DNA of 64,000 nt, from the NCBI RefSeq assembly GCF_001282785.1, contig NZ_CVUA01000001.1, positions 372,001 through 436,000 of the forward strand, in the 5' to 3' direction. The notes beneath the pieces were generated by a model that was not told the origin of the DNA, did not search any database, and saw only the letters and a program-made list of their open reading frames with translations. Both the position numbers and the translations under genes were made by a program. This stretch comes from Halolamina sediminis. Lineage in GTDB: Archaea > Halobacteriota > Halobacteria > Halobacteriales > Haloferacaceae. The first letter of the stretch is position 1. Every line of letters starts with the position of its first letter. Below are positions 4,458-46,609 of this stretch, piece by piece.

Positions 4458-6833
4458 ATGGAGTGGCTCCCCGTCCTCGCGTACCTCGCGCTCGTCGCGG
4501 CGTTCACCGCGATCGGCGCGCCGATCGCCGCCGGGCTGTTCCGGCACCTCCCCCGGAAGGGCGCCGCCTTCGCGCTCCCGACCGCGCTGGTGCCGTTCGC
4601 GATCCTGATCTTCTGGATCGGCCAGCTCACGTTCGGCCTCCACACGCTGCTGCTCGGGCTCGGGATCGTGCTCGCCGCCTCGGTGCTCGCGTGGCGCCGC
4701 GGCGCCCGCCCCGACTGGCGCGCGGTGGCGGCGATGTACGGCGTGTTCGTCGTCGGCTTCGGGATCATGCTCGCGTTCCGGGCGGCCAACCCCGCGATCA
4801 CCGCCGCCGCCGGCGAGCAGTTCCTCCACTTCGCGCTGGTGAACACGCTCGAACGCGCCGAACAGCTCCCACCGGAGGACGTCTGGTTCGCCGGGAAGCC
4901 GCTGCGGTACTACTACGGCACCCAACTCCAGGTCGCGAGCCTCGCGATGCTGACGGGGACCGCGATGCGCTACGGCTTCAACCTCGGCATCGCGACGTTC
5001 TACGGGACGCTGTTCGTCGTCGCCGCGGGCGTCGGCGGCGCGCTCGTCTCCCGCCGCGGCGGCTCCGTCCGCGTCGGCGGCGTCGCGGGCGCCTTTTTCG
5101 TCGCGCTCGGCGGCGCGGCGACCACGGCCATCCGGCTGGTCACGCCGTATCTCCCCGACTCGATCCGCGGGACCGTTGAGCAGGCCGCGTTCGGCTTCGT
5201 CGCCCAGCGCTTCGAGGGCGGCGACCTCGCCACGACGGTCGCGAACCTCTCCAAACCGCTGGACTGGGGCTGGTGGTACACCCGCTACGTCGTCCCGGGG
5301 ACGATCCAGGAGGTGCCGCTGTACTCCTTCGTGAAGGCCGACCTGCACGGCCACACGTTCGCGAACCCGTACGTGCTGTTCGCGGCGGCGCTCGCCCTCG
5401 CCTACTACGTCACCCCGGCCGCCGAGCGCAGGCGCCGCCTCGCGCTCCTCTTCGGCGGCCTCGGTGCCGTCGCCGGCCTGTTCGGCTTCATGAACACGTG
5501 GTCGCTCCCGACCGCCGCCGGGCTGGCCGCGCTGGCCGTCGGCGCCGCCGACGCCCACCCCGCGACGCTATTGCCCGCCTCGCTGGCCGACCGTCTCCAG
5601 CCCGCTTCCGACCCCGAGACCCGCGCCGAGTGGCTCCTCCACGAACTGTGGCGGGTCGCGCTCGCGGCCGTCGCCGCGGGGATCGTCCTCGCGATCGGCG
5701 TCGCGATCGCCTCGCCGTTCCTGATCTTCGGCCACGTTCCGAGCAACGAGGGGATCGGCTTCCTGCCGCCGCGGAGCCCGCTGCCCGCGTTCCTCGTCAT
5801 GTACGGTGGCCTCGTGACGGCGTTCGCGGCGTACGTCGTCGCCCGGGGGTGGCCCGCGGCCGACGACCTCGCGATACCGTGGCTCGGCGCCGCCGGCGCG
5901 CTCCTCCTCGGCGCCGTCGTCGCGGCCGCGGTGATCGAGAACTTCGCCGTCTTGGCCCTGCTCGGTACCCTGATCGTCGCCGGCTGGCTGCTCGTACGCT
6001 CGGGCCGGGCGGGCTTCGGGATGGTGCTGCTCGTGGCGGGCGCGGGGCTGCTCGCCGCGCTGGAGCTTGCCCACGCGCGGCTGCCGCTGATCGACAACCC
6101 ACGCTGGAACACGTCGCTGAAAGTGGGCGTGCAGGCGTGGACGCTCGGCGCCGCCGGCGCGGCCGCCGCGTCGGTCGCGCTCCTCCGGGAACACGGTAGC
6201 CGGCTCGCCGCCCGAATCGACGCGCTGGGCAAGGACGTTTCGGCCGGGCCCGGCTCCCGCGAGACGCTGACCTCGGCGCTGACCGTCGCGCTGGTCGTCG
6301 CCGTCGTCCTCGCGACGGCGGTGTTCCCGGTGATGATGGTCGCCGCGGAGATCGGCGAGCCGGTCGACGAGGGCCACTACGACCCCTCGCTCGACGGGAT
6401 GAAGGCCGTCGAGAACTTCCACGCCAACGAGTACGAGGCGCTGCAGTGGCTCGACGAGCGCTCCGGCCGGCCGACGATCGTCGAGGTGCCCGGCGCCTCC
6501 TACGACTGGACGAGTCCGGCGTCGACGTTCTCCGGACTGCCGACGGTCGTCGGATGGGACCACCAGGCCGAGTACCGGAGCATGGACGCCTACGAGCGCC
6601 GGGTCCGCCACGTCGACGCCATCTACGCCGGCGACTGGGAGCGCGCCGCGGCACTGCTGGAGCGCTACGACGTGACGTACGTCTACGTCGGGCCGAACGA
6701 GCGGGAGGTGTACGGCGACTCGATGCGGTCGTTCGACCGCGATGCGTTCTCGGTCGCGTTCGAGGGCGGCGCGGTGACGATCTACGAGGTCGACCACGCC
6801 GCGCTCGACGAATCGACGGACGGCGGTTCCTGA
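4458..6833 (+). CDS. DUF2298 (Chlor_Arch_YYY) multi-pass membrane protein
   Basis: A protein of 791 residues. The frame is open back to 4206, but the upstream part runs through the intergenic repeat, so ATG 4458 (MEWLPVLAYLAL), which begins the first helix, is chosen. The family hallmark RYYYG is present, with the three tyrosines at about residues 151-153. About twelve or more transmembrane helices span residues 1-640. The C-terminal 150 residues are a soluble, probably external, domain. The fold resembles GT-C glycosyltransferases, so transfer of a lipid-linked sugar is possible but unproven. Confidence 0.85.
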   Translation: MEWLPVLAYLALVAAFTAIGAPIAAGLFRHLPRKGAAFALPTALVPFAILIFWIGQLTFGLHTLLLGLGIVLAASVLAWRRGARPDWRAVAAMYGVFVVGFGIMLAFRAANPAITAAAGEQFLHFALVNTLERAEQLPPEDVWFAGKPLRYYYGTQLQVASLAMLTGTAMRYGFNLGIATFYGTLFVVAAGVGGALVSRRGGSVRVGGVAGAFFVALGGAATTAIRLVTPYLPDSIRGTVEQAAFGFVAQRFEGGDLATTVANLSKPLDWGWWYTRYVVPGTIQEVPLYSFVKADLHGHTFANPYVLFAAALALAYYVTPAAERRRRLALLFGGLGAVAGLFGFMNTWSLPTAAGLAALAVGAADAHPATLLPASLADRLQPASDPETRAEWLLHELWRVALAAVAAGIVLAIGVAIASPFLIFGHVPSNEGIGFLPPRSPLPAFLVMYGGLVTAFAAYVVARGWPAADDLAIPWLGAAGALLLGAVVAAAVIENFAVLALLGTLIVAGWLLVRSGRAGFGMVLLVAGAGLLAALELAHARLPLIDNPRWNTSLKVGVQAWTLGAAGAAAASVALLREHGSRLAARIDALGKDVSAGPGSRETLTSALTVALVVAVVLATAVFPVMMVAAEIGEPVDEGHYDPSLDGMKAVENFHANEYEALQWLDERSGRPTIVEVPGASYDWTSPASTFSGLPTVVGWDHQAEYRSMDAYERRVRHVDAIYAGDWERAAALLERYDVTYVYVGPNEREVYGDSMRSFDRDAFSVAFEGGAVTIYEVDHAALDESTDGGS

Positions 6834-8382: not shown

Positions 8383-10203
8383 TCACTTCCCCCAGAACGG
8401 ATCGCGCTTCCGCATCTTCTCCAGATACGCGTTCAGCGCCTCGCGCTCGTCGGCCGGAATCTCCTCTTTGAGCTCCTGCTCCAAGATCTTCGCGTGCTTC
8501 TCGGGCAGGTCGATCCAGAGCTCGTCGCCCTCCTCGATGTCCCGACCCACTGTCGGCCCGTCGATCGCGACGCTGACGCGGCTGCCCGCGCGGGCTTCGT
8601 CCACGTCCTCGCCCTGCTCCTGCATCCCGGAGAGCTCGCCCACCCGGGTCGACTCGCCGTCGTCGAACTTCGCCACGCGGCGGTTGTTCTCGATCGTCCC
8701 CGAGAGGATCTCGACGCCGACGACCGCGGGGTCGTTCTGGCGGAACGTGTGGTCCTCCAGAATCCGGAACCGCGCGGGGCGGTGGATCTTGTCGAGCACC
8801 GTCTCCTGCTGCTCGCGCTGGCGCTCCTCGACGAACTGCTCGTAGTCCTCGACGAGCTGATAGATCACGTCGTGGTTGAACAGCTTCACGCCCTGCTGAT
8901 CGAGTTCGCGCTCGGCGTCGGGCAGCACGTCGACGTTGAAGCCGAGGATCACGCGGTTCTCGGCCTCGTTGGCGGTGCTCGCGACTGCCACGTCACGCGG
9001 CGCCACGTCGCCGACCTCCGCACGGAGGATCGGGATCTCCGCCTCCCGCAGCGCGTTGGCCATCGCCTCCAGACTGCCGAGCGTGTCCGCCTTCACCACG
9101 ACGCCCTCGTCCTGCGTGTCGACCTCGATCTCGGAGAGCTCCGCCTCGACTTCGGCGATCACGTCCTCCAGCGGTCGGCCGCGGACCACCCGGACCGGCG
9201 CGCCGGCCATCGCGTCGTCGAGGTCGGGCGCCGCGACCTTCACACCGGAGGCCGCCTGCACCGAGTCGAGGCGCTCGAACTCCGCCTCCGTGCGGATCTC
9301 CGAGAGCGCCTTCGGGCGTAGCAGCGCACGGACCTCCGTGACGATCGGGCTCTCGACACCGCCGACGACGATGCGGTCGCCCTCTTGGATCGTCCCGTCG
9401 TACAGCACTACGTCCAGCGTGGCGCCGAACCCCTTCTCGTCTTTGACTTCGAGCACAGTCCCCTTCCCCGGGCCCTGGAGGTCGATCTCCATCTCCGTCT
9501 TCATGTAGCGCTGGGAGAGCCCCATCAGCACCGCGAGCAGGTCGGGGATCCCCTCGCCGGTCATCGCGGAGACGGGGACGACACCGATGTTTCCTTGGAA
9601 GTTCTGGACGCGCCAGTAGAGGTCCGCCGAGAAGCCGGCGTCGGAGAGTTCGCCGATGATCTCGTAGAGGTTCTCGTCGAGCCGCTGGCGAGCGCGGTCG
9701 GTCTGACTCTCGTAGGTCTCCTGAACGGGCGCGTCGGCCTGTGGGTTCCAGCCCGGCGTCGTGTCGATCTTGTTCGCCGCGACGACGAATGGGGTGCCGG
9801 TGCGCTGGAGGATGTCCAGCGCCTCCTCCGTCTGGGGCTGGAAGCCGTCGTTCACGTCGACGACGAGGACCGCGATGTCCGCGAGCGCGCCGCCGCGGGC
9901 CCGCAGCGTCGAGAACGAGTGGTGGCCGGGGGTGTCGATGAACAGCAGCCCGGGCAGGTCGAAGTCGTCGGCCATCACGAGGTCGCCGGCCATCGACGAC
10001 ACCGTATCGAGCGGGACGGCGGTGGCGCCGATGTGTTGGGTGATAGCGCCGGCCTCGCCCTCGCTGACGGCCGAGCCCCGCACCTTGTCGAGCAGGCTCG
10101 TCTTCCCGTGGTCGACGTGGCCGAGCACGGCGACGATGGGCGTCCGGAGCGATCCGGGGTCAGTAGCAGCGTCCGCGTCAGTGTCAGAGTTGGCGTCGGG
10201 CAT
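8383..10203 (-). CDS. infB: Translation initiation factor aIF5B
   Basis: GTPase that promotes ribosomal subunit joining and initiator tRNA positioning. The 606 residues match archaeal aIF5B. G1 is GHVDHGKT (about residues 28-35), G3 DTPGHHSF and G4 NKID. Domain II and the C-terminal domain IV follow, ending with the long helix [17 protein letters not shown]. The N-terminus is a short acidic tail ([13 protein letters not shown]) typical of halophiles. It is convergent with the Tat hydrolase and divergent from the PRC-barrel gene. Confidence 0.96.
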
Positions 10204-10329
10204 CGAAAATCACCGAGAGAACGTCTCTTGGCTGTGGAGAGTCGCGGGCGCCAGTTACCTGTTTCGACTCTTCGCGGGCGGCGGACCCAGTGAGTGCGGT
10301 CGGCGATGGGGCGGGCCGGCCCCGTGGCG

Positions 10330-10335
10330 TTTATT
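10330..10335 (+). promoter_or_regulatory. TATA-like box of the PRC-barrel/nob1 pair
   Basis: TTTATT lies about 28 bases before ATG 10360 in the 156-base gap shared with infB. This spacing supports start 10360 rather than the longer frame beginning at 10294. Confidence 0.45.
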
Positions 10336-10359
10336 GCGCTACGGGCTGTTTTGCCGCGC

Positions 10360-10605
10360 ATGGCCGACATACTCGCCGAGAACCTCTCGGGGAAAGCAGT
10401 CATGGGCTCGGACGGCACCGAGCTGGGTATGCTGTACAACATCACGATGGACCTCAAGACGGGGGAGCTCCACGACCTGCTGGTCTCGCCCAACGAGGAC
10501 ACCCCACGCGGGAAAGTCAACTTCGAGCGCGACGAGGGCGGTCGGTTCCGGGTGCCGGTCTCCCGGGTGCAGGCCGTGAAGGACTACATCGTCGTCCAAC
10601 GCTAA
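10360..10605 (+). CDS. PRC-barrel domain protein
   Basis: 81 residues, essentially one PRC-barrel domain, a small beta-barrel found in photosynthetic reaction centre H subunits and in RimM. The sequence [25 protein letters not shown] with the later [15 protein letters not shown] fits the fold. The start at 10360 (MADILAEN) is chosen because the upstream extension is basic, unlike haloarchaeal proteins, and because of the TATA box. The nob1 start follows the stop by two bases, so the two genes are cotranscribed. Haloarchaea have several such proteins; the role is unknown, and a ribosome or RNA link is only suggested by the neighbour. Confidence 0.85.
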
Positions 10606-10607
10606 GG

Positions 10608-11066
10608 ATGGAGGTCCTCGACACGTCCGCGTTCATCCACGAGTACCACACCGACGACGAGCAGGTCTCGATCCCCCTCGTGAAAGAGGAGTTGGAGGGC
10701 GGCAACGAGTACCGCTTCGACGCGATGGAGGGTGCGGGGATGGAGCTCCACCTCCCGGCCGACGAGACCGTCGACCGCGTGCGTCGGGCCGCCGGCGAGA
10801 CCGGCGACGCCGACGAGCTCTCCGAGACCGACACGCGCCTGCTCGCGACCGCGTTCGAGCTCAGCGCCACGCTGGTCACCGACGACTACGCGATGCAGAA
10901 CGTCGCCGAGAAGCTCGACGTCGACGTCCAGGTGATCGCCCGCGACGGGATCGAGGAGGAACGCGAGTGGACGTTCCAGTGTGCCGGCTGCGGTCGCGAG
11001 TTCGACGACGACCGCGAGCGCTGTCCGATCTGCGGGAGCGACCTCAGCCGGAAGAACCCGGCCTGA
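10608..11066 (+). CDS. nob1: rRNA maturation endonuclease NOB1 (PIN domain plus zinc ribbon)
   Basis: 152 residues. The N-terminal PIN domain begins MEVLDTSAFIHEY, with catalytic Asp5, and continues with acidic residues at SETDTRLLATA and VTDDYAMQNVA. The C-terminal zinc ribbon has CAGCG and CPICG, ending SRKNPA. Archaeal NOB1 trims the 3' end of pre-16S rRNA. The gene has been chosen to start at ATG 10608 after AAGG, which keeps the catalytic Asp near the N-terminus. It is translationally close to the PRC-barrel gene. Confidence 0.92.
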   Translation: MEVLDTSAFIHEYHTDDEQVSIPLVKEELEGGNEYRFDAMEGAGMELHLPADETVDRVRRAAGETGDADELSETDTRLLATAFELSATLVTDDYAMQNVAEKLDVDVQVIARDGIEEEREWTFQCAGCGREFDDDRERCPICGSDLSRKNPA

Positions 11067-11081
11067 TTCTCACTGACTGAG

Positions 11082-11795
11082 CTACGCTACCTGCCAGTAC
11101 TGGATCGCGTACAGCACCGCGTTGTAGCCGCCGTGAGCGATAGCTGGCACCAGTAGGTTCCCGGTCCGCTCGTAGAGGGAGCCGAGCAGGATCCCCAGCA
11201 GGAACGAGAACGCGACGTACGCCAGCGCGCCGCTGCCGCCGCCGATGTAGTGCAGCGAGCCGAACAGCGCGCTCGCGCCGACGATCGACGGCCACGGCCC
11301 CCAACTCCGCCGGAGCACGCCCTGCAAGCCGCCACGGACCAGTAACTCCTCGGCCGGCCCGACGACCAGCAGCGAGACCGGCACCATCCAGAGGAAGTAC
11401 GCCGGCGCGTGGGTCTCCGGGTCCAGCGCGGGGTTCTGTGAGGGCGCCACGCCGATCTGTGAGAACGCCGAGAGCAGGACGTACTGGCCGACGTAGAGCG
11501 CGACGATAGCGCCGACCGCGATCGCGGCCTCCCGGCGATCCGGCACGCCCCCGGAGAGCAGCGTCCGGTCCCCCTCGGCGACGACGAACAGCGCGACCGG
11601 GGCGACGAAGCCGAGATACCGGACGGCGGTGCCGACGATCTGGTACGCCGTCGTCCCCTCGGCGACCCCCAGCGTCGACGCGGCGCCGATCCACAGCGAG
11701 CTGCCGAGGCCGAGGCCGAGCACCCCCGCGACGAACAGCGTGATCGCCTGCCCGATCCGAAGTAGCCGAGACCCCTCGGCCGACGACTGGCTCAT
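11082..11795 (-). CDS. CPBP-family intramembrane metalloprotease
   Basis: 237 residues with about seven or eight membrane helices. Motif 1 is EELLVRG (EExxxR), followed by a helix with FGSLHY and the last motif HGGYN; these supply the glutamates and histidines of the ABI/CAAX-protease active site. The frame continues upstream to 12380, but only as antisense of pgi, so ATG at 11795 (MSQSSAEGSR) is taken. Substrates of archaeal members are unknown. It is convergent with nob1. Confidence 0.88.
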   Translation of the reverse strand: MSQSSAEGSRLLRIGQAITLFVAGVLGLGLGSSLWIGAASTLGVAEGTTAYQIVGTAVRYLGFVAPVALFVVAEGDRTLLSGGVPDRREAAIAVGAIVALYVGQYVLLSAFSQIGVAPSQNPALDPETHAPAYFLWMVPVSLLVVGPAEELLVRGGLQGVLRRSWGPWPSIVGASALFGSLHYIGGGSGALAYVAFSFLLGILLGSLYERTGNLLVPAIAHGGYNAVLYAIQYWQVA

Positions 11796-11875
11796 CGCCC
11801 GGAGCAAGCGCCCGCCCGGGCAAAGCGGTGACGGTCGGGCGTCGACGCCGGCCGACGCGGCGGGCGGCGACCGCG

Positions 11876-13162
11876 CTACTCGACGACCAACCGATCTTTC
11901 CCGCGCACGGCGCCGGCCTCCGCGAACTCGCCGCCGCCGAGCAGACCGCGAGCAGCCTTCTTCCCCCACTCCACGGCGGGCTGGGTGAACGTCGAGAGCT
12001 CGGCGAGCTCGCCGTAGCAGATGCAGGCGGCCTCCATCCCGAACAGCAGTTCGCCCAGCCCGCGCTCGTCGATGCGATCGATCTCGAGCCGGACGTTGGG
12101 GCAGTCCGCAGCCGTCAGGCTCGCCTCGGTGGCCTCGAACTCGGCGTCGAGCAGCGTTCCGAGCGACTGGCCGCCGAGGTAGGAGAGCCCCTCCAGGTCG
12201 GTCTCGGGGATCCCGCGGTCCGCGCGCTCGGTGGGACGGACGAGCGTGACGAGTTTGTCCCGCGGGCCGGCGCGGTACAGTTGGAGCTGTGAGTGCTGGT
12301 CGGTCGCGCCGAGCGCGCGGGCGGGCGTCTGTCCCCGGCCGTCCTTCCCGAGGCTCTCGGCCCACAACTGCGCGAACCACTCCGCGAACGTCTCCAGCGA
12401 CTCGGCGTACGGCATGAACGCGTTCGTCAGCGCCCCGCGTTCCGCGAGCGCGTACGTGGTCGCGCCGTAGGCGTAGGCGGGCGAGTCGTACAGCGAGCCA
12501 GCGAGGCGCTCGCGCTCGTCGGCGGCGCCGGCGAGGATCGCCTCGAGATCGTGACCCTGGATCGCCGCGGCAGCGAGTCCGACCGTCGAGAGCACCGAGA
12601 AGCGCCCGGGGACGCCCTCCGGCACGTCGAGTGCGGGCAGGTCGTGCTTCTCGGCGAGGTTCCGGAGGTTCCCCTCGGGACCCGTGGTCACGAACGTCCG
12701 CTCGGTCCAGTCGACGCCCGCCCGCTCCATCGCGTCGCGGACGACGAGGAAGTTCGACAGCGTCTCCGCGGTGGTGCCGGAGTTCGAGACGACGTTGACG
12801 GCGGTTCGGGCGAGGTCGAGCGAGCCCAGCAGTTGGGTGGTGTGCTCGGGGTCGACGTTGTCGAGGTAGTAGGCGTCCACGTCGCTCTCGAGCGCGTTCG
12901 AGAGCGTCGCCGCGCCGAGCGCGCTGCCGCCGATGCCGACCGTGAGGACGGCCTCGCTGTCGGCGAACGGGGTGACGGCGTTCCTGATCCGGTCGGGATC
13001 GGCGGTCTCGGGGAGGTTCAGCGATCGGTAGCCGAACTTCCGGTCGGTCATCCCGTCGGCGATGCGTTCGTGGGCCGCGGCCACGTCGGCGTCCAGTTCG
13101 TCGAGGGCGTCACGGGTGAGTTCGGGCTCGCTGCCGAGGGCGTTGCCGATGTCGGTGCGCAT
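11876..13162 (-). CDS. pgi: Glucose-6-phosphate isomerase
   Basis: Interconverts glucose-6-phosphate and fructose-6-phosphate. At 428 residues it is of the shorter Pgi type used by haloarchaea. Visible signatures are VGIGGSALGAATL, VSNSGTTAETLS (sugar-phosphate SIS loops), the catalytic-Glu region PYAESLETFAEW with GKDGRGQTPA, and GATDQHSQLQLY with the catalytic His. ATG 13162 (MRTDIGNALG) is chosen; the longer frame to 13429 reads through repeats and is Cys/Arg-rich. In this group Pgi mainly serves gluconeogenesis and polysaccharide synthesis. Confidence 0.95.
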   Translation of the reverse strand: MRTDIGNALGSEPELTRDALDELDADVAAAHERIADGMTDRKFGYRSLNLPETADPDRIRNAVTPFADSEAVLTVGIGGSALGAATLSNALESDVDAYYLDNVDPEHTTQLLGSLDLARTAVNVVSNSGTTAETLSNFLVVRDAMERAGVDWTERTFVTTGPEGNLRNLAEKHDLPALDVPEGVPGRFSVLSTVGLAAAAIQGHDLEAILAGAADERERLAGSLYDSPAYAYGATTYALAERGALTNAFMPYAESLETFAEWFAQLWAESLGKDGRGQTPARALGATDQHSQLQLYRAGPRDKLVTLVRPTERADRGIPETDLEGLSYLGGQSLGTLLDAEFEATEASLTAADCPNVRLEIDRIDERGLGELLFGMEAACICYGELAELSTFTQPAVEWGKKAARGLLGGGEFAEAGAVRGKDRLVVE

Positions 13163-34205: not shown

Positions 34206-34280
34206 GGGTTGGTAGTCTAGTCCGGTTATGACACCTCCTTGACATGGAGGAGGCCGGCGGTTCAAATCCGCCCCAACCCA
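34206..34280 (+). tRNA. tRNA-Val (anticodon GAC)
   Basis: The acceptor stem GGGTTGG (34206-34212) pairs fully with CCAACCC (34273-34279), with discriminator A at 34280. The anticodon arm is CCTCC-TTGACAT-GGAGG, giving anticodon GAC. The T arm is GGCGG-TTCAAAT-CCGCC. CCA is not encoded. A run of T follows the gene (TTTTCTG), suitable for termination. Confidence 0.95.
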
Positions 34281-40236: not shown

Positions 40237-40612
40237 GAGTCGCTTACCCGCCCGTTCGTTTGTACGACCGTGGTTATGGCTGGCGTACCGTCGGCTTCCC
40301 CTCGCCAGCCGGGATTCGTCGACGATTCGAGCGCAGTCGCGTGGTTCTCGACGATCTGGCTCTCCCTGACAAGGTGGTTGCTGTACCCACACGACACGTT
40401 CGGGGGTCCCATCCCGTCGCGATCCGGCCTCGAACGGGAGGTTAGCTGGTCGAACGACGGGTTCGACTGCGCTGCTAGGTCGCTCCCTGCTGTCGATTTC
40501 GTCGTTCGATGGTGGCGTGCTCGCTCGTAACTAATCCCCTCCCAGAAGTTGGTGTCGCTAACCGAGCGAGGGTCCGTCCCGGCGTGGGGCACCCAGCGTT
40601 CGGGAGCAAACC
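40237..40612. other. Gap upstream of the TasA-like locus
   Basis: 376 bases holding the divergent promoter region of the second DUF7344 gene and the leader of the first TasA-like gene. A CGTAACTAATCC stretch about 85 bases before ATG 40613 may be a TATA region. Immediately before the ATG is TTCGGGAGCAAACC, similar to the leaders of the next two genes. A frame of about 85 codons from ATG 40276 is open but has poor codon bias. Confidence 0.5.
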
Positions 40613-42136
40613 ATGACCGACGACGACAACCCGATCCGACTGTCGCGGCGCAAAGTACTAGGAGGCCTCGGCGGTGTCGGCCTCGCCTCTGCAGGTGCGG
40701 GGCTCGGCACCACGGCGTACTTCAGCGACCAGGAATCGTTCACCGACAACTCCCTGACAGCCGGGGAGCTCGACCTCAAACTCGACTACAAGTCCACGTA
40801 CGCGGGCGGCCCCGGGCGTCTCGAGGAGATCGACGCGCTCTACCCCGACTTCGACGTCGAGGAGATCGACGATGGCGTCTACCTCACCGGCGAAGTCCCC
40901 AACGCGGGTGACAACCCCGGCGGATGGCCCGGCGCTATCGAGGACTGGGATCTCTGCGATCCCGAGCTGAACCTCGTCGACGGTGAGGGGGTTCCGGTGT
41001 TCAACCTCGAGGACGTGAAGCCGGGGGACATGGGGGAGGTCACCATCAGCCTCCACATCTGTGACAACCCCTCGTGGCTCTGGATGAGCGGTGAGCTCAC
41101 CGAGAACGCCCAGAACGGCTTCTCCGAGCCGGAGGAGGAGGCGCTTCTGGAGGAGTACGAGGAGCTGCCGGAGGCGGGACAGCTCGCCGATGCCGTCGAC
41201 GTCACGATGTGGTACGACGAGGACTGTGACAACGTCTACGAGCCCGGCGGCGAGGGCGAGCCGGTCTGTGTCCAGCTCGTGCTCGACGCCTCGGGCTCGA
41301 TGAACGGCACTCGGAACCAGCAGACGATCAACGGCGCGAAGGAGCTTGCCGAGCGCATCCTCGACGACGGCCCGGACGGCAGCCGCGTCGGTGTGACTTT
41401 CTTCAGCGCCGACGGCTACGACGAAAGCGCGCAGGTCGTCCAGCCGCTGACGGACGATCTCGCGACCGTAGAGAACGCCATCGACACGCTCCCCGCCAAC
41501 GGCGACAACACCGCGATCGGCGAGGGTATCCAGACCGCACAGAACGACTCGCTGGTCAACTGCGGCGAGGACGAGTCGCCGATCATGGTCGTCATGACCG
41601 ACGGTGGGAACAACGCCGGCACCGACCCCGGCGACGCCGCGGACGCTGCACAGGGTGAAAGCACCGAGATATTCGCCCTCGGGGCTGGTGGCGCCACCGA
41701 GAGTACCCTGGAAGAAATCGCGAGCGACCCCGTCGAGGACCACGTCTTCACGTCCACGACCGACGAGGCCATCGACCAGGCGTTCGCCCAGATCGCGGAG
41801 GTGATCGTCGGCGAGACGATCATTCTCGAAGGTTCGCTCGCCGACGTGATGGCGGAGCTGGAGGAGGGGATCCCCCTCGACGGCAACCGCGCGACCGAAC
41901 AGCGCGACCCGTTCAACGGCGGGGTGACCCAGTGTCTGGGCTTCGAGTGGGAGGTCCCGGCCGATGTCGGCAACGAGATCCAGACGGACTCGGTGATGTT
42001 CGACATCGGGCTCTACGCCGAGCAGTCGCGACACAACGACGATCCGACGAACCCGTTCAACGAGACGGCGACAGCGACCGAGACGCCGACACCGACCACG
42101 ACGTCGACGCCCGGTGGGAACTCCTCGCAGAGCTGA
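40613..42136 (+). CDS. TasA-like secreted protein with inserted von Willebrand A domain
   Basis: 507 residues. The leader has LSRRKVLGG (twin Arg) and ends TTAYFSDQESFTDNSLTAG, the SipW-dependent signal pattern. Residues about 25-215 are the first half of a TasA/camelysin-like domain. Residues about 216-410 are a vWA domain with intact MIDAS: DASGSM (Asp225, Ser227, Ser229), Thr in NTAIG, and Asp330 in MTDGGN. The TasA-like domain resumes (GETIILEGSLADVM) and ends VMFDIGLYAEQSRHN. A Thr/Pro tail follows. In the neighbour at 42241 the same core is continuous, so the vWA is an insertion. Likely fibre-associated adhesin, by inference. Confidence 0.85.
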   Translation: MTDDDNPIRLSRRKVLGGLGGVGLASAGAGLGTTAYFSDQESFTDNSLTAGELDLKLDYKSTYAGGPGRLEEIDALYPDFDVEEIDDGVYLTGEVPNAGDNPGGWPGAIEDWDLCDPELNLVDGEGVPVFNLEDVKPGDMGEVTISLHICDNPSWLWMSGELTENAQNGFSEPEEEALLEEYEELPEAGQLADAVDVTMWYDEDCDNVYEPGGEGEPVCVQLVLDASGSMNGTRNQQTINGAKELAERILDDGPDGSRVGVTFFSADGYDESAQVVQPLTDDLATVENAIDTLPANGDNTAIGEGIQTAQNDSLVNCGEDESPIMVVMTDGGNNAGTDPGDAADAAQGESTEIFALGAGGATESTLEEIASDPVEDHVFTSTTDEAIDQAFAQIAEVIVGETIILEGSLADVMAELEEGIPLDGNRATEQRDPFNGGVTQCLGFEWEVPADVGNEIQTDSVMFDIGLYAEQSRHNDDPTNPFNETATATETPTPTTTSTPGGNSSQS

Positions 42137-42139
42137 ACA

Positions 42140-42180
42140 CCCGTCCACGACCACGCTCCGTGGACGGGGCCGCGAGGCCC
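42140..42180 (+). promoter_or_regulatory. Two hairpins after the vWA gene
   Basis: CCCGTCCAC (42140-42148) and GTGGACGGG (42160-42168) form a perfect 9-bp stem four bases after the stop. It is followed by GGGCC-GCGA-GGCCC (42167-42180), a stem with a GNRA-type loop; the two share two bases and may be alternatives. No T-run follows, so this may be an mRNA-stability or processing structure rather than a terminator. Confidence 0.5.
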
Positions 42181-42189
42181 GGGTCCCCC

Positions 42190-42240
42190 CCGTCGGTTCG
42201 ACTCCGGCGGCGGAGCTTCCCCGCGAGGGGAGCGACAACC
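42190..42240 (+). promoter_or_regulatory. Structured leader A: T-arm-like hairpin plus SD-covering hairpin
   Basis: CCGTCGG-TTCGACT-CCGGCGG (42190-42210), a 7-base linker, then TCCCC-GCGA-GGGGA (42218-42231), then ATG at 42241. The GGGGAG ribosome-binding sequence lies in the second stem. The same layout precedes ATG 43668, with different stem bases. Confidence 0.55.
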
Positions 42241-43575
42241 ATGAAAGACGACAACCCGATCCGACTCTCCCGCCGCAAGATGCTCGGTGGCGTCGGCGCC
42301 ATCGGCCTCGCGAGCGCGGGCGCCGGACTCGGTACGACGGCGTACTTCAGCGACGAGGAATCGTTCACCGACAACAGCCTGACCGCCGGCGAGCTCGACC
42401 TACTCGTCCACGTCGACTACTCGGAGGACCAGGGCAGCTACGCCCAGTACAGCACGCCCGACGGCACGTACATCGACGGCGGCGTCGTCGGCGGCCAGGA
42501 GGACGGTGAACCGCTCCAGATCGAGGTCTCCGACCTGAAGCCGGGCGACTCCGGCGAGGCCGAGTTCTGTTTCTCCATCGTCGACAACCCGGCGTACATG
42601 TGGATGTGCGGCGAGCTGACCGACGACGACGAGAACGGACAGACCGAACCCGAGGCCGAGGTCGACGACTCCGGTGGCGACCCCGGCGAGGGCGAGGGCG
42701 AACTCGCGGACGCCATGCAGGTGACGCTCTCGTACTGCTCCGAGGAGGACGGCGAGACCGTCATCGGTGAGGAGATCGTCTCCGATTCGCTGGGGGACGT
42801 GATGCTCGCGCTCCAGTCTGGCGTCCCGCTCTCCGGCGACGGCGACGCGGACACTCCGATCGACGACCGTGAGCCCTTCGAGGGCGTCGAGTCGGCTTTC
42901 GACGACGAGGAACCCAACACCGCCGAGCAGTGCGTCTGCGTCAGCTGGGAAGTCCCGACCGACGTCGGCAACGAGATTCAGACGGACTCGGTGATGTTCG
43001 ACTTCGAGTTCTACGCCGAGCAGGCCCGCCACAACGACGGCACGACCAACCCCTGCGTCGACGAGACCGTCGTCACGGAGTACGACAACGACTGGAAGGG
43101 CCAGACCCTCGGTAACCCGACCGACGGCAGTGTCTACACCGGCGTCTCCTACGGGGAGGACCAGACCGTCCTGAGCTTCACTTTCGTGGACGACGACGAC
43201 GGCACCGACTTCCTCGACACGGCGGACTACTCCAGTACGAACCTCCCGGTCGCCGTCGACGCCGACGCCGACGGGACCCACGACTGGCAGCTAATCTGGC
43301 AGCCGAACGCCGGCTTCCCGGACGACCCGTTTGGCTACAAGGAGAACACCGGCGGAAGCTACGGTTCGTCCCAGTCGCTCCCGGCCGGGTTCTCCGCGCT
43401 GAAGGTCGGCAACACGATCTCGTTCGGGATCCCGAACAGCGAGCTCTCCTCGACCTTCCGCGTGCTCGGGTACGGGAGCACGGGTGGCGAGGGTCCGGTG
43501 GCGAAGGTCAACGCCGACCCCACGGTCGGCCCGGACTGGTTCAACAGCGCCAACGCGGTGGAGTTCACCGAGTAA
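42241..43575 (+). CDS. TasA/camelysin-like secreted protein with SipW-type leader
   Basis: 444 residues. The leader is nearly the same as that of the previous gene: LSRRKMLGGVGAIGLASAG, then TTAYFSDEESFTDNSLTAG. The core has SDLKPGDSGEAEFCFSIVDN, LADAMQVTLSY and VPTDVGNEIQTDSVMFDFEF plus YAEQARHN. A further C-terminal domain (about 300-444) with VLSFTFVDDDDGTDF and SFGIPNSELSSTFRV is specific to this member. Predicted to be processed by the peptidase at 45557 and assembled outside the cell; this is inferred from TasA and archaeal bundling pili. Confidence 0.85.
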   Translation: MKDDNPIRLSRRKMLGGVGAIGLASAGAGLGTTAYFSDEESFTDNSLTAGELDLLVHVDYSEDQGSYAQYSTPDGTYIDGGVVGGQEDGEPLQIEVSDLKPGDSGEAEFCFSIVDNPAYMWMCGELTDDDENGQTEPEAEVDDSGGDPGEGEGELADAMQVTLSYCSEEDGETVIGEEIVSDSLGDVMLALQSGVPLSGDGDADTPIDDREPFEGVESAFDDEEPNTAEQCVCVSWEVPTDVGNEIQTDSVMFDFEFYAEQARHNDGTTNPCVDETVVTEYDNDWKGQTLGNPTDGSVYTGVSYGEDQTVLSFTFVDDDDGTDFLDTADYSSTNLPVAVDADADGTHDWQLIWQPNAGFPDDPFGYKENTGGSYGSSQSLPAGFSALKVGNTISFGIPNSELSSTFRVLGYGSTGGEGPVAKVNADPTVGPDWFNSANAVEFTE

Positions 43576-43621
43576 AGCCCGACGACCACCTCCCACACCG
43601 GATCCGCGCGGGTGGCCGGGA

Positions 43622-43667
43622 CGGCGGTTCGACTCCGCCGGTGGGGTTCCCGTAGGGGAGACCAACC
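43622..43667 (+). promoter_or_regulatory. Structured leader B
   Basis: CGGCGG-TTCGACT-CCGCCG (43622-43640), 7-base linker, TCCC-GTAG-GGGA (43648-43659), then ATG 43668. Loop TTCGACT and linker length are the same as in leader A, while stem bases differ but pair. Confidence 0.55.
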
Positions 43668-43778
43668 ATGTCCGACATCACGAACAGCCGACTGCCCGCT
43701 CTACGGCTCACACCCGGTAGGGAGTCTATTCATATCGTTACACCCCTCCTAGGTGTCCCCGAGGGAGACCCGTACTGA
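43668..43778 (+). CDS. Candidate 36-residue leader ORF coupled to the next gene
   Basis: ATG 43668 follows leader B with the same GGGGAGACCAACC context used by the TasA-like genes. The frame ends in TGA at 43776-43778, overlapping the next ATG by one base. The product (MSDITNSRLPALRLTPGRES..., about neutral) has no recognisable domain. A TTCATATCG stretch inside it could be a promoter for the next gene, in which case the frame is not translated. Confidence 0.35.
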   Translation: MSDITNSRLPALRLTPGRESIHIVTPLLGVPEGDPY

Positions 43779-44464
43779 TGACCCACGACGGTCCCGACGT
43801 CAGCCGCCGACGCCTCCTCGCGAGCGCCGGCGCCGTCGGCATGGGGGCGTTCGGCGGCGCCGTCGGCGTCGCCGACAGTGTCACGCACGAGCCGCGCGAG
43901 TACAGCCACTACACCTACGCCGGCACGCCGGCCCAGATCGAGGGGACGGAGACTGCGGGCTCCCGGCTCCGGGTCGCGTGGGAGAGCCGCTACAACGGCG
44001 AGCCGGTGGCTGCAAGCGGCGACGGCCCCGAGTACGTCGCCGACGCGGCCGGACCGCTGTTCACGGCGCCGGACGTGCTCCCCGGGGACTACGGCACCGC
44101 GAGTATTCGACTCACTGCCGAGGGTGAAGAGCCAGTCAGCGTTCGACTCGTTCCTGCTGTACAGGGGTCGCTCGCGGCGGCCGTCTCGATCCGGCTGGGG
44201 TACGACACCGGGATCTTCGGAATCGGCGCCTGCGATGGCGTCGACGACCCCGACGACGTGGTCGGCGACGTGACGATGTCGCTCGCGGCGTTCGGCGACA
44301 CGTACGGCGACGACGGCCTGTCGTTGAACCCGGACTGTCTCGACCCGGGCGAGGAGCTCTGTCTCGGCTTCGGCTGGGAGTTTCCCGCGACCGCGGCCAA
44401 CGAGTGGCAGCGGACGACGACCGCCTTTGAGCTCGCGTTCTACGCCGAGGGGTGTTCGGAATGA
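43778..44464 (+). CDS. Tat-exported TasA-like paralogue
   Basis: 228 residues. The leader is a clear Tat signal, SRRRLLASAGAVGMGAFGG; the AYFSD motif is missing. The core still matches: PDVLPGDYGTASIRL, VVGDVTMSLAAFGD, ELCLGFGWEFPATAANEWQR and AFELAFYAEGCSE at the very C-terminus. This is the shortest member and may be a minor subunit or cap. A TCCC-CGA-GGGA hairpin (43756-43766) precedes the start. Its stop overlaps the next ATG by four bases (ATGA). Confidence 0.78.
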   Translation: MTHDGPDVSRRRLLASAGAVGMGAFGGAVGVADSVTHEPREYSHYTYAGTPAQIEGTETAGSRLRVAWESRYNGEPVAASGDGPEYVADAAGPLFTAPDVLPGDYGTASIRLTAEGEEPVSVRLVPAVQGSLAAAVSIRLGYDTGIFGIGACDGVDDPDDVVGDVTMSLAAFGDTYGDDGLSLNPDCLDPGEELCLGFGWEFPATAANEWQRTTTAFELAFYAEGCSE

Positions 44465-45564
44465 CTGCTGAGCGCCCCCCGGGTGTCCCCACACGACGGC
44501 AGCTACTGGCGGGGCTGGGGACGCTCGGCGTCGCGAGCACACTCGGCGGCGGCGCCGCGTCGGCGCTGCTCGCCGACTCGGAGGGGGCAAGCGGAACGAT
44601 CACGGCGGGTGACGTGTCGCTGACCGTCGACTGCCCGGACTGCGTCACGACGCCGAACGGCGTCGCGTTCGACGTCTCGGTGGATCCCGGCGAGAGCGGA
44701 TCGACGACGCTCTCGGTCCTCCCCGGCGGCAACCCCGTCCGGCTGTGGGCTCGAACGACCTGTCCCCCGGTCAGTGACGCGTTCGCGGGGGCGCTCGAGG
44801 TGACGCTCGGGCTCGACGCCGACTGCGACGGCGAGACCGAGTCGACGCTGTTCACGGGGTCGTTGGCCGAATTCCAGCGCTCGTTCGTCGACGGTCGTCG
44901 GCTCACCGGCGCGGAGCCGTGTCTCCCCGCGGACGAGTCGCTGTGTCTCGACCTCGCGTGGGAGCTCCCCGCTGGCGCGAGCCTTCCCGCATCGACGACG
45001 ACGCTCGCCTTCGAGTTCTACGCCGAGCAGTGCCGCCACCAGCCGGAGTCGGCGGTGACCAACCCGTTCGCGGGCACCGATCCATGCCCCGAGGAGCTGG
45101 ACTGCCCGGCGTGTGTCGAACTCGGCAAGATCGACGTACAGGGCGACCGGCTGACTGTCGGCGAGTCGTACGCCTTCGCCGAAGTGGGCGAGCAGTACCT
45201 CGACGACGGCCACGAGTACGCGCTCGAGGTGCTGTCGGTCACCGACGTGGGTCAGCCCCCGGAAACCGTCGGCGCCGGCTTCCGGCTGCTCCGGGACAGT
45301 ACGCCCGCCGACGACCTGCGGATCTGCGCGGTCGCGGTCGGGGGCGGGCGTCCGAACCCGAGCGGCAGCCCGTCGGACCCCGACGCCCGGGTCGCCCGCT
45401 ACACGTTCGACCCGCCGACCTCGTCGACCCCCGGACAGGTGTACGCAGCCCACGGCGCGTACAAGGACGACCCGATGAGCCAGCCGGACGACGAGCGGCC
45501 AGCGATCAGCAACATCACCGTCTCCGTCTGTGCCGACGGGACGGCGGAGGAGACCGATGACTGA
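44461..45564 (+). CDS. TasA-like secreted protein with C-terminal extra domain
   Basis: 367 residues. Leader TRRQLLAGLGTLGVASTLGG followed by SALLADSEGASGTITAG, a SipW-like cleavage region. The core has VSVDPGESGSTTLSV, ALEVTLGLDADCDGETE, LCLDLAWELPAGASLPAST and FEFYAEQCRHQPES. A C-terminal domain from about residue 215 (CPACVELGKIDVQGDRLTVG) is unlike the other members. GTG 44452 is in frame upstream, but ATG 44461 forms the ATGA overlap. It overlaps the peptidase gene by eight bases. Confidence 0.8.
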   Translation: MTAERPPGVPTRRQLLAGLGTLGVASTLGGGAASALLADSEGASGTITAGDVSLTVDCPDCVTTPNGVAFDVSVDPGESGSTTLSVLPGGNPVRLWARTTCPPVSDAFAGALEVTLGLDADCDGETESTLFTGSLAEFQRSFVDGRRLTGAEPCLPADESLCLDLAWELPAGASLPASTTTLAFEFYAEQCRHQPESAVTNPFAGTDPCPEELDCPACVELGKIDVQGDRLTVGESYAFAEVGEQYLDDGHEYALEVLSVTDVGQPPETVGAGFRLLRDSTPADDLRICAVAVGGGRPNPSGSPSDPDARVARYTFDPPTSSTPGQVYAAHGAYKDDPMSQPDDERPAISNITVSVCADGTAEETDD

Positions 45565-46609
45565 AACAGACGATACGACCGACTCACGCACCGATACGGA
45601 AGTTATCACGACGCCGCCCGAGAACTCGCCCGACGAGCAGTCGCGGCCCGATTCCCCGGGAGACGAGCCGGACGATTCCCGACGTGTGACGCTCCGCCGG
45701 GGGCTGAACGCCCTCGGGGTCGTCCTGCTGCTCGCCGTCGTCGCGCCGTTCGTGGTGTACGCGGTTCCCGGCGTCGTTGGTGCGGATGCGAGCTTCGTCG
45801 TCCTGAGCGGCAGCATGGAGCCGGCGATCTCCGCGGGCGACGTGGTCGTCGTTGAGTCGGTGCCGCCTGCGACGGTCGCGGTCGACGACGTGATCACCTA
45901 CTCCCGGAGCGAGGAGGCCGCGACCGTGACCCACCGCGTCATCGACATCGAGGGGACCGGCGACGGGCGCGTGTTCTACACCAAAGGCGACGCGAACGAG
46001 GACCCCGATCAGCGGCCGGTCCCCGCCTCGGCGCTCGTCGGCACCGTCGTGCTCACCATCCCCTACATCGGCTACGTGATCCAGTTCGTCGGCACCACCA
46101 CCGGGTTCGCACTGCTGGTCGTCCTCCCGTTCGCCGCGCTGCTGATCTCCGAGGTCGCGATGTTCCTCCGACGCAGGCGGAAGGGAGAGACAGGCGCCGA
46201 GCGGACGACGAGCGAGCGACGGCCGCCGTCGGACGTAGCGGCCGCGGCGCCACACGCTCCGCAGCGAAACAGTGACGCTCCCGTCAGAGAGGCGCCTGCC
46301 CACACGGAGGATCGGTCGGCGGAGCAGTCCATGGAGTCGGCCGACGCCGTCGAAATCTCGTCGACGGACATGGTCCTCACACTGGGCGTGCTCGGGGCGG
46401 TCCTGCCCTACGCCGTCTACGTCGCCGTCGAGCAGCAGTCGGCGCTCTCGATCGGCGTCGCCGTCGGGTTCGGCACGGCGTTCGTGCTGCTGGCCGGCGT
46501 GTTCCTCACGACCCGGCTCCGTGAGCGCTCGCAGGGCGACCCCGCCCGGTCACCCCCGGCCGAACCCACGGCAGCAAGTGACGGCGGAGTGCCGGAGGAG
46601 GAACCATGA
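45557..46609 (+). CDS. Sec11/SipW-type signal peptidase I with C-terminal membrane extension
   Basis: 350 residues. After an acidic N-terminal tail (about 45 residues) and one helix comes the catalytic domain: Ser86 in LSGSMEPAI, His126 in [10 protein letters not shown] and Asp145 in [10 protein letters not shown]. This Ser-His-Asp set is that of archaeal/ER Sec11 and SipW rather than bacterial Lep. A second helix lies near residue 185. The C-terminal 150 residues have a disordered linker and two more helices ([36 protein letters not shown]), beyond the usual enzyme. Its place among substrates suggests a dedicated peptidase. Confidence 0.88.

Follow-up and report, generated by a model that had tools for sequence, protein, structure and literature searches.

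Candidate tRNA-like cutting signals between genes of a haloarchaeal TasA-like fibre operon

Two leaders in a run of exported-protein genes

The window (the whole 64 kb stretch of DNA that was analysed) belongs to a 2.84 Mb genome that is haloarchaeal by its named relatives. A co-directional gene run starts at 40613 and comprises a SipW/VWA gene, a camelysin/TasA-like gene, a 36-codon ORF, two exported-type ORFs and a SipW-like peptidase gene. The two larger intergenic gaps of the run, 42137-42240 and 43576-43667, contain leader A and leader B, respectively. The gene at 40613 has no upstream match to R1, a covariance model built solely from 59 mRNA leaders (alignment A2, below) with no rRNA in its training, and its upstream neighbour is divergent. 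The features are as follows.

40613-42136, + strand: first cluster gene, SipW-type signal peptide and VWA (SipW model match)
42155-42216, + strand: element A, tRNA-like (t-element-like); bases checked, minimum-energy fold
42155-42161 / 42210-42216, + strand: acceptor of element A
42162-42190, + strand: insert of element A, with an inner hairpin
42191-42209, + strand: T-arm of element A
42197-42203, + strand: T-loop of element A, TTCGACT
42216-42217, + strand: predicted tRNase Z cut A (+/- 1 nt), placed from the 5S alignment
42217-42232, + strand: hairpin 2 of A, TTCCCC-GCGA-GGGGAG, -9.6 kcal/mol; the processed mRNA is predicted to begin here
42241-43575, + strand: SipW-type camelysin/TasA-like gene after element A (TIGR04088, 31 bits; PF12389, 22.9 bits, cut-off 22.5)
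43591-43647, + strand: element B, tRNA-like; R1 match at 43590-43648, 45.6 bits, E 2.6e-7 in 64 kb
43591-43596 / 43641-43646, + strand: acceptor of element B
43597-43621, + strand: insert of element B, with an inner hairpin and GG
43622-43640, + strand: T-arm of element B; N73 is 43647
43628-43634, + strand: T-loop of element B, TTCGACT
43647-43648, + strand: predicted tRNase Z cut B (+/- 1 nt), placed from the 5S alignment
43648-43659, + strand: hairpin 2 of B, TCCC-GTAG-GGGA, -6.1 kcal/mol; the processed mRNA is predicted to begin here
43668-43778, + strand: ORF of 36 codons downstream of element B, with a TGA stop that overlaps the ATG of the following ORF (TGATG)
43778-44464, + strand: exported-protein ORF with a twin-arginine-like N-terminus (no family match in a profile search)
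44461-45564, + strand: exported-protein ORF overlapping its neighbour, without an element
45557-46609, + strand: SipW-like signal peptidase I (TIGR02228, 111.5 bits; NF046067, 104 bits, below the 190 cut-off)

A sequence-only reading of this DNA had described in each leader a stem with the loop TTCGACT, a 7-base linker and a short hairpin suggested to mask the ribosome-binding site. Both leaders indeed contain the TTCGACT-loop stem, a GC-rich linker and a short hairpin whose 3' arm includes GGGG, and the bases (A/C)CAACC followed by the ATG at 42241 and at 43668 were confirmed. The supposed linker is the 3' strand of a helix, the 5' strand of which lies 30-45 nt upstream (42155-42161 in A and 43591-43596 in B), outside the segments originally delimited. 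Each leader as first delimited thus makes up just the 3' half of a larger, tRNA-like element. Both leaders had also been placed before TasA-like starts, which holds for A (42241); at B, the ATG at 43668 opens the 36-codon ORF and the TasA-like ORF begins at 43778.

In Halolamina pelagica (L016), a 37-codon counterpart of the 43668 ORF has the same stop/start overlap and a common GRE(S/R)IHI stretch. The DNA common to both Halolamina small-ORF loci (ACCCGGTAGGGAG..ATTCATATC) might instead be a promoter. Words resembling TAACTAATCCC / TTACCTAT / ACCTAAGG often stand ahead of the start at element-free first SipW genes, including positions 40525-40548 of the window, and may represent a common promoter or activator box.

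In its minimum-energy fold, element A alone is tRNA-like, its T-stem having 7 bp and its acceptor 6 bp, and folding of 43590-43647 yields a tRNA-like structure for element B. The acceptors differ by compensatory changes (GCTCCG/CGGAGC in A, TCCCAC/GTGGGG in B), and the stack of acceptor and T-arm spans 12-13 bp (6+7 in A, 6+6 in B) with a TTCGANY T-loop. R1 misplaces the acceptor of element A, which reaches a score of only 21.7 bits. Folding energies do not exceed those of shuffled sequences, with z values of -1.4 (A) and -0.9 (B) with tails and of -1.2 (A) and -1.1 (B) for the tRNA-like parts alone, and element B with its tail has an alternative fold of lower energy that disrupts the T-arm. 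The conclusion that the leaders are more than chance is based on recurrence across genomes and not on folding energy alone.

The loop sequence TTCGACT occurs 12 times in the window, counting both strands, and is closed by a stem of >4 bp only at A and B. Likewise, [AC]CAACCATG was found in the window only at the two leaders, and a stricter leader pattern matched only the A and B sites in the whole of this genome. No tRNA was called at either element by ARAGORN or Rfam, the one tRNA of the window lying at 34206-34280, and neither element has a full cloverleaf with an anticodon arm. At the gathering score, the sole Rfam match in the window was the tRNA at 34206, with no riboswitch or leader family at A or B; matches obtained at a permissive threshold in 42100-43800 were at chance level and were rejected. 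An R1 match at window positions 6096-6130 is inside coding sequence and was also taken as chance.

Recurrence, covariation and position of the family

Of the 392 genomes of the order, 95 contain the TTCGAYYCCGYCGGTGGG pattern, which covers the first stem, the loop and the linker, and multiple copies per genome, 0.7-2.5 kb apart, are frequent; the reversed-pattern control gave zero in every row listed. A covariance-model search, proposed in the sequence-only reading as a check, was carried out with R1 and returned further haloarchaeal homologues with covarying stems. At E<=0.01, R1 matched in 155 of the 292 class genomes. In a sample of the phylum, matches were found in 16 of 147 genomes, all within the same order. 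These many homologues with compensatory changes support a selected RNA structure, and neither chance nor simple common descent, both of which had been flagged for exclusion, accounts for them.

Candidates from 60 fetched regions and the earlier loci came to 141, or 139 without two chance hits in coding sequence (L021+8129 and L100-3136). Alignment A1 contains 29 elements, L018+8268 and L003-344 having been dropped. Alignment A2 contains 59 of 72 automatically cut elements; the other 13, with a seemingly mispicked 5' strand, were dropped by eye, which favours the pairing figures for helix 1.

The plan common to the family is a 5-7 bp acceptor-like helix stacked on a 6-bp T-arm (TTCGANY), about 12 bp in total, with a variable insert in place of the D and anticodon arms, usually 2-3 nt followed by GG and often with a hairpin. 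As in t-elements, the acceptor-like helix is stacked on a T-arm that carries a T-loop, and about 12 bp (6+6 positions in A2) lead from the T-loop to the acceptor end, the outermost pair often being unformed. This pair, N1-N72, does not form in 23 of the 59 A2 rows and is weak overall (42/93 Watson-Crick, permutation p 0.03). The T-loops of the 139 elements are TTCGACT/ATT/ATC/ACC/AAC, and the T-stems differ in letters from element to element while pairing is retained.

Pairing of the acceptor was assessed with many-element tests because the strand, tested element by element, was mostly non-significant in C-rich DNA. When GTGGG follows the T-stem (123 elements), CCCAC is present <=75 nt upstream in 102, against a mean of 24.5 and a maximum of 36 in shuffles; CCCAC.{2,3}GG was found in 93 of these elements vs CACCC.{2,3}GG in 1. 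Variant 3' strands have matching 5' strands, as in GCTCCG/CGGAGC (element A), ACTCAC/GTGAGT, ACTCGC/GCGAGT and ACCCGG/CCGGGT. Twelve acceptor variants, collapsed from 16, scored 15.2 with their own upstream partner vs 11.9 with swapped partners (0/20000 permutations). Because the 5' strands vary with the 3' strands, the former linker is assigned as the acceptor 3' strand. In the 59 rows of A2, 96.5% of cells pair, compared with at most 55.5% in slid controls, and two-sided changes occur in 28 cells vs 8.5 shuffled; since A2 was selected for recognisable 5' strands, more weight is given to the test on collapsed variants and to the 5S result described below.

Upstream genes were called with a purpose-made codon-usage gene finder, which agreed with the main window genes. 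A same-strand upstream gene precedes 129 of 136 elements, with a median distance of 59 nt from stop to T-stem; for the remaining seven, the upstream gene is on the opposite strand, about 300 nt away or farther. The downstream gene is on the same strand for 111 of the 114 elements that lie outside ORFs and have a called downstream gene.

R1 gave 62 matches at E<=1 and 51 at E<=0.01 in ten chosen genomes. Set A3 consists of the 45 matches at E<=0.01 with a resolved downstream ORF, from these ten genomes only, and its downstream N-termini matched the SipW-type signal model in 26 cases, the alternate-type signal model in 15, camelysin in 20, TafA in 12, TafE in 8 and TafC in 8, with overlaps between models possible. 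The six other matches are followed by SipW/Taf-type genes (two), 5S (one), exported-type frames (two, one of them farther downstream) and nothing evident (one). A literature search for Taf/TasA fibres in haloarchaea gave no pertinent paper.

Among 63 SipW matches in eight genomes, an element precedes 23 of the 37 genes with a same-strand gene <=300 nt upstream and 5 of the 26 others (Fisher p 0.0009); a sixth element-bearing gene beyond these five, G388:C4:92016, has a variant recognised by eye. Internal SipW genes without an R1 match number 14 of 37, five of which lack intergenic room. These SipW counts indicate that the elements mark operon-internal gaps and not promoter-proximal leaders. 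The element is mostly found between co-directional genes, ahead of TasA/camelysin-like SipW-type exported proteins.

5S rRNA genes, tails and alternative explanations

Loci fetched from R1 matches that scored equally in two places per genome proved to be rRNA operons. At these loci, which were chosen by the model, R1 matches end 1 nt before 15 of 15 Rfam 5S genes, so that the element is flush with the mature RNA 5' end at every selected gene, as in t-elements. Five of the 15 genes are tandem second copies and fall outside the selection, and the ten-genome tally contains a further 5S match, G169:C2:1062912. Since R1 was trained on mRNA leaders alone and lands flush on 5S genes, the t-element reading of the leaders is supported. 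5S rRNA itself starts with a helix, much as the predicted mRNAs would start with hairpin 2.

Tandem duplicate 5S genes with a t-element before each were observed in L126, L127, L130, L131 and L132. In the genome of the window, the element at one of two 5S loci, L146 1455-1520, has a partial R1 score of 17.8 bits; its acceptor (CCGAG/CTCGG) differs, and its plan of NNNGG and a 6-bp T-stem is the same by eye.

The t-element immediately upstream of 5S in H. volcanii is cut by tRNase Z, which makes the 5S 5' end, according to the available text of PMC4326828. In vivo, RNase P and tRNase Z process engineered t-elements that flank a crRNA, as described in the accessible parts of PMC4326828 and PMC4946936. 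Published cleavage by these enzymes applies to the 5S and the engineered elements.

The sequence after the element begins with T (N74) in 128 of 139 elements, the commonest N74-76 words being TCC and TTC. CCA was encoded at 74-76, directly after position 73, in 0 of 139, as expected of t-elements; an encoded CCA at this point is an anti-determinant of tRNase Z. Hairpins were evaluated in 102 distinct tails of 14-45 nt out of 123, with L018+8268 left out. A hairpin of >=4 bp is present in 94 of the 102 (62.7 expected from shuffles) and missing from eight; among the 98 structured tails, pairing begins at N74 itself in 56 and <=2 nt from N74 in 92. The first alignment of T-arm and tail did not recover hairpin 2. 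GGGG is found in 74 of the 102 tails, GGGGA in 55 and SD-like words in 24. An intrinsic terminator was rejected, a T-run after the element not being the rule.

The frequency of the tail hairpin and of GGGG, together with the position of hairpin 2 about 10 nt ahead of the AUG, would agree with a translational leader in which hairpin 2 masks a GGGGA ribosome-binding site and opens upon a signal. RBS-masking leaders, including RNA thermometers, place a stable hairpin shortly ahead of the AUG. In the haloarchaeal element, however, conservation is highest in the tRNA-like acceptor and T-arm and not in the GGGG hairpin, few copies have SD-like words, GGGG is missing from 28 of 102 tails, and no conserved SD is sequestered in every member. 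The hairpin hiding GGGG, as originally described, is thus common without being universal. Because 5S genes, which have no ribosome-binding site, carry the same element flush with their start, RBS masking is not considered the main function, and a translational leader of this kind is unlikely; a minor effect of hairpin 2 on translation is conceivable.

A cis-regulatory aptamer, to which a tRNA-modifying enzyme, a synthetase or a regulator would bind and control expression without cleavage, would suit downstream genes that form one functional group, and the element has a T-loop and an elbow-like GG, which are typical protein-binding features. The mid-operon position and flush 5S placement better match an end-forming signal, and the Rfam searches described above returned no regulatory family; we regard an aptamer as quite unlikely. 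The resemblance of the T-arm and acceptor 3' strand to a tRNA 3' end, and the several copies per genome, would also be expected of a functionless tRNA-derived mobile repeat or a tRNA 3'-end att scar, but this is very improbable given that the 5' strand covaries, the orientation is fixed relative to the downstream gene, copies stand almost only ahead of one gene class and no tRNA is called at A or B. An inverted-repeat DNA operator bound by a transcription factor, suggested by the location upstream of genes and the conserved sequence blocks, is scarcely credible for stems that vary in letters, retain pairing and lie inside operons.

Proposed processing and related systems

Leaders A and B are probably natural mRNA t-elements, i.e., minimal tRNA-like cutting signals in the intergenic gaps of a TasA-like fibre operon, with a probability of about 0.77. 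At the level of sequence comparison, the structure, its covariation, the identity of plan with 5S t-elements and the operon-internal position were demonstrated; from these we infer cleavage by tRNase Z, possibly with RNase P, and splitting of the transcript at A and B. tRNase Z would cut after position 73, at approximately 42216/42217 in A and 43647/43648 in B, and RNase P may cut at the 5' side of the element. The polycistron would yield three mRNAs, one for gene 1, one for gene 2 and one for all genes downstream of element B. Each new mRNA 5' end would be the U that opens the stable hairpin 2, followed by about 10 nt and the AUG, with hairpin 2 probably shielding the mRNA 5' end or tuning initiation. 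Differing amounts of fibre subunits, accessory proteins and signal peptidase could thereby become possible.

tRNase Z is usually regarded as a tRNA (and 5S) enzyme. If the t-element reading is true, it would be a regulator of archaeal protein-coding operons, and many haloarchaeal transcripts would have a concrete predicted cut site. The element would offer a handle on subunit ratios in TasA-like fibre operons and a natural compact (~40 nt) RNA-cutting module for archaeal genetics. More tentatively, and with slightly less than even odds, minimal tRNA-like elements that lack the D and anticodon arms may be a general, cross-domain operon-splitting signal in haloarchaeal fibre operons and bacteriophage operons, at which the enzymes of tRNA 3'/5' processing would define mRNA ends and, through these, how much of each neighbouring protein is made relative to the others.

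In tRNA, the acceptor and T-arm stack as 7+5, and the haloarchaeal element likewise forms about 12 bp. In the literature searched, a scope that did not extend to Hoelzle 2012 (reportedly, by its title, a study of tRNA-like elements in Haloferax), a conserved t-element family in archaeal protein operons was not found. The Haloferax volcanii 5S t-element is credited to Hoelzle 2008 and 2012 in the available portions of PMC4326828, PMC3296008 and PMC7714728. It resembles the mRNA elements in architecture, T-loop and flush position, and R1 finds haloarchaeal 5S elements; however, its product is 5S rRNA and not mRNA, the acceptor sequences differ, and cleavage is a prediction for the mRNA elements. 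In plant mitochondria, t-elements set intergenic cleavage sites in polycistronic mRNA (PMC8003010, accessible text); as described there, they are tRNA-like and intergenic, as are leaders A and B, but they are organellar and serve mRNA 5' and 3' ends. RNase P cleaves bacterial polycistronic mRNAs and phage C4 RNA, which parallels the proposal in that a tRNA-processing enzyme acts on non-tRNA transcripts; the available part of PMC11143913 presents these as individual cases, describes no conserved repeated element of a gene class, and concerns an enzyme other than tRNase Z. t-elements as such were already known from Haloferax 5S and plant mitochondrial mRNAs.

Elements of the same plan were also observed in viral contigs, with 43 elements in 40 contigs (L173, L202, L203, L223, L263, L300 and L314-L347); all six T-stem pairs are formed in 37 of 43, four of the six having been left free by the search pattern. 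The elements are about 40 nt long with covarying T-stems, and several lie shortly before a start codon; the contigs are mostly phage-like and many are AT-rich. R1, applied to 22 of the 40 contigs, gave several matches with E values of 1e-7 to 1e-5, and one viral element has relatives in Streptococcus and Lactobacillus phages, in gaps that carry no annotation. Contig L319, which had no match in a named phage collection, contains four tandem mini-elements on the minus strand within 3 kb (9518-12445). Downstream of each lies a GC-rich stretch resembling a hairpin, and some copies also have a start codon there, a layout as in the haloarchaeal operons.
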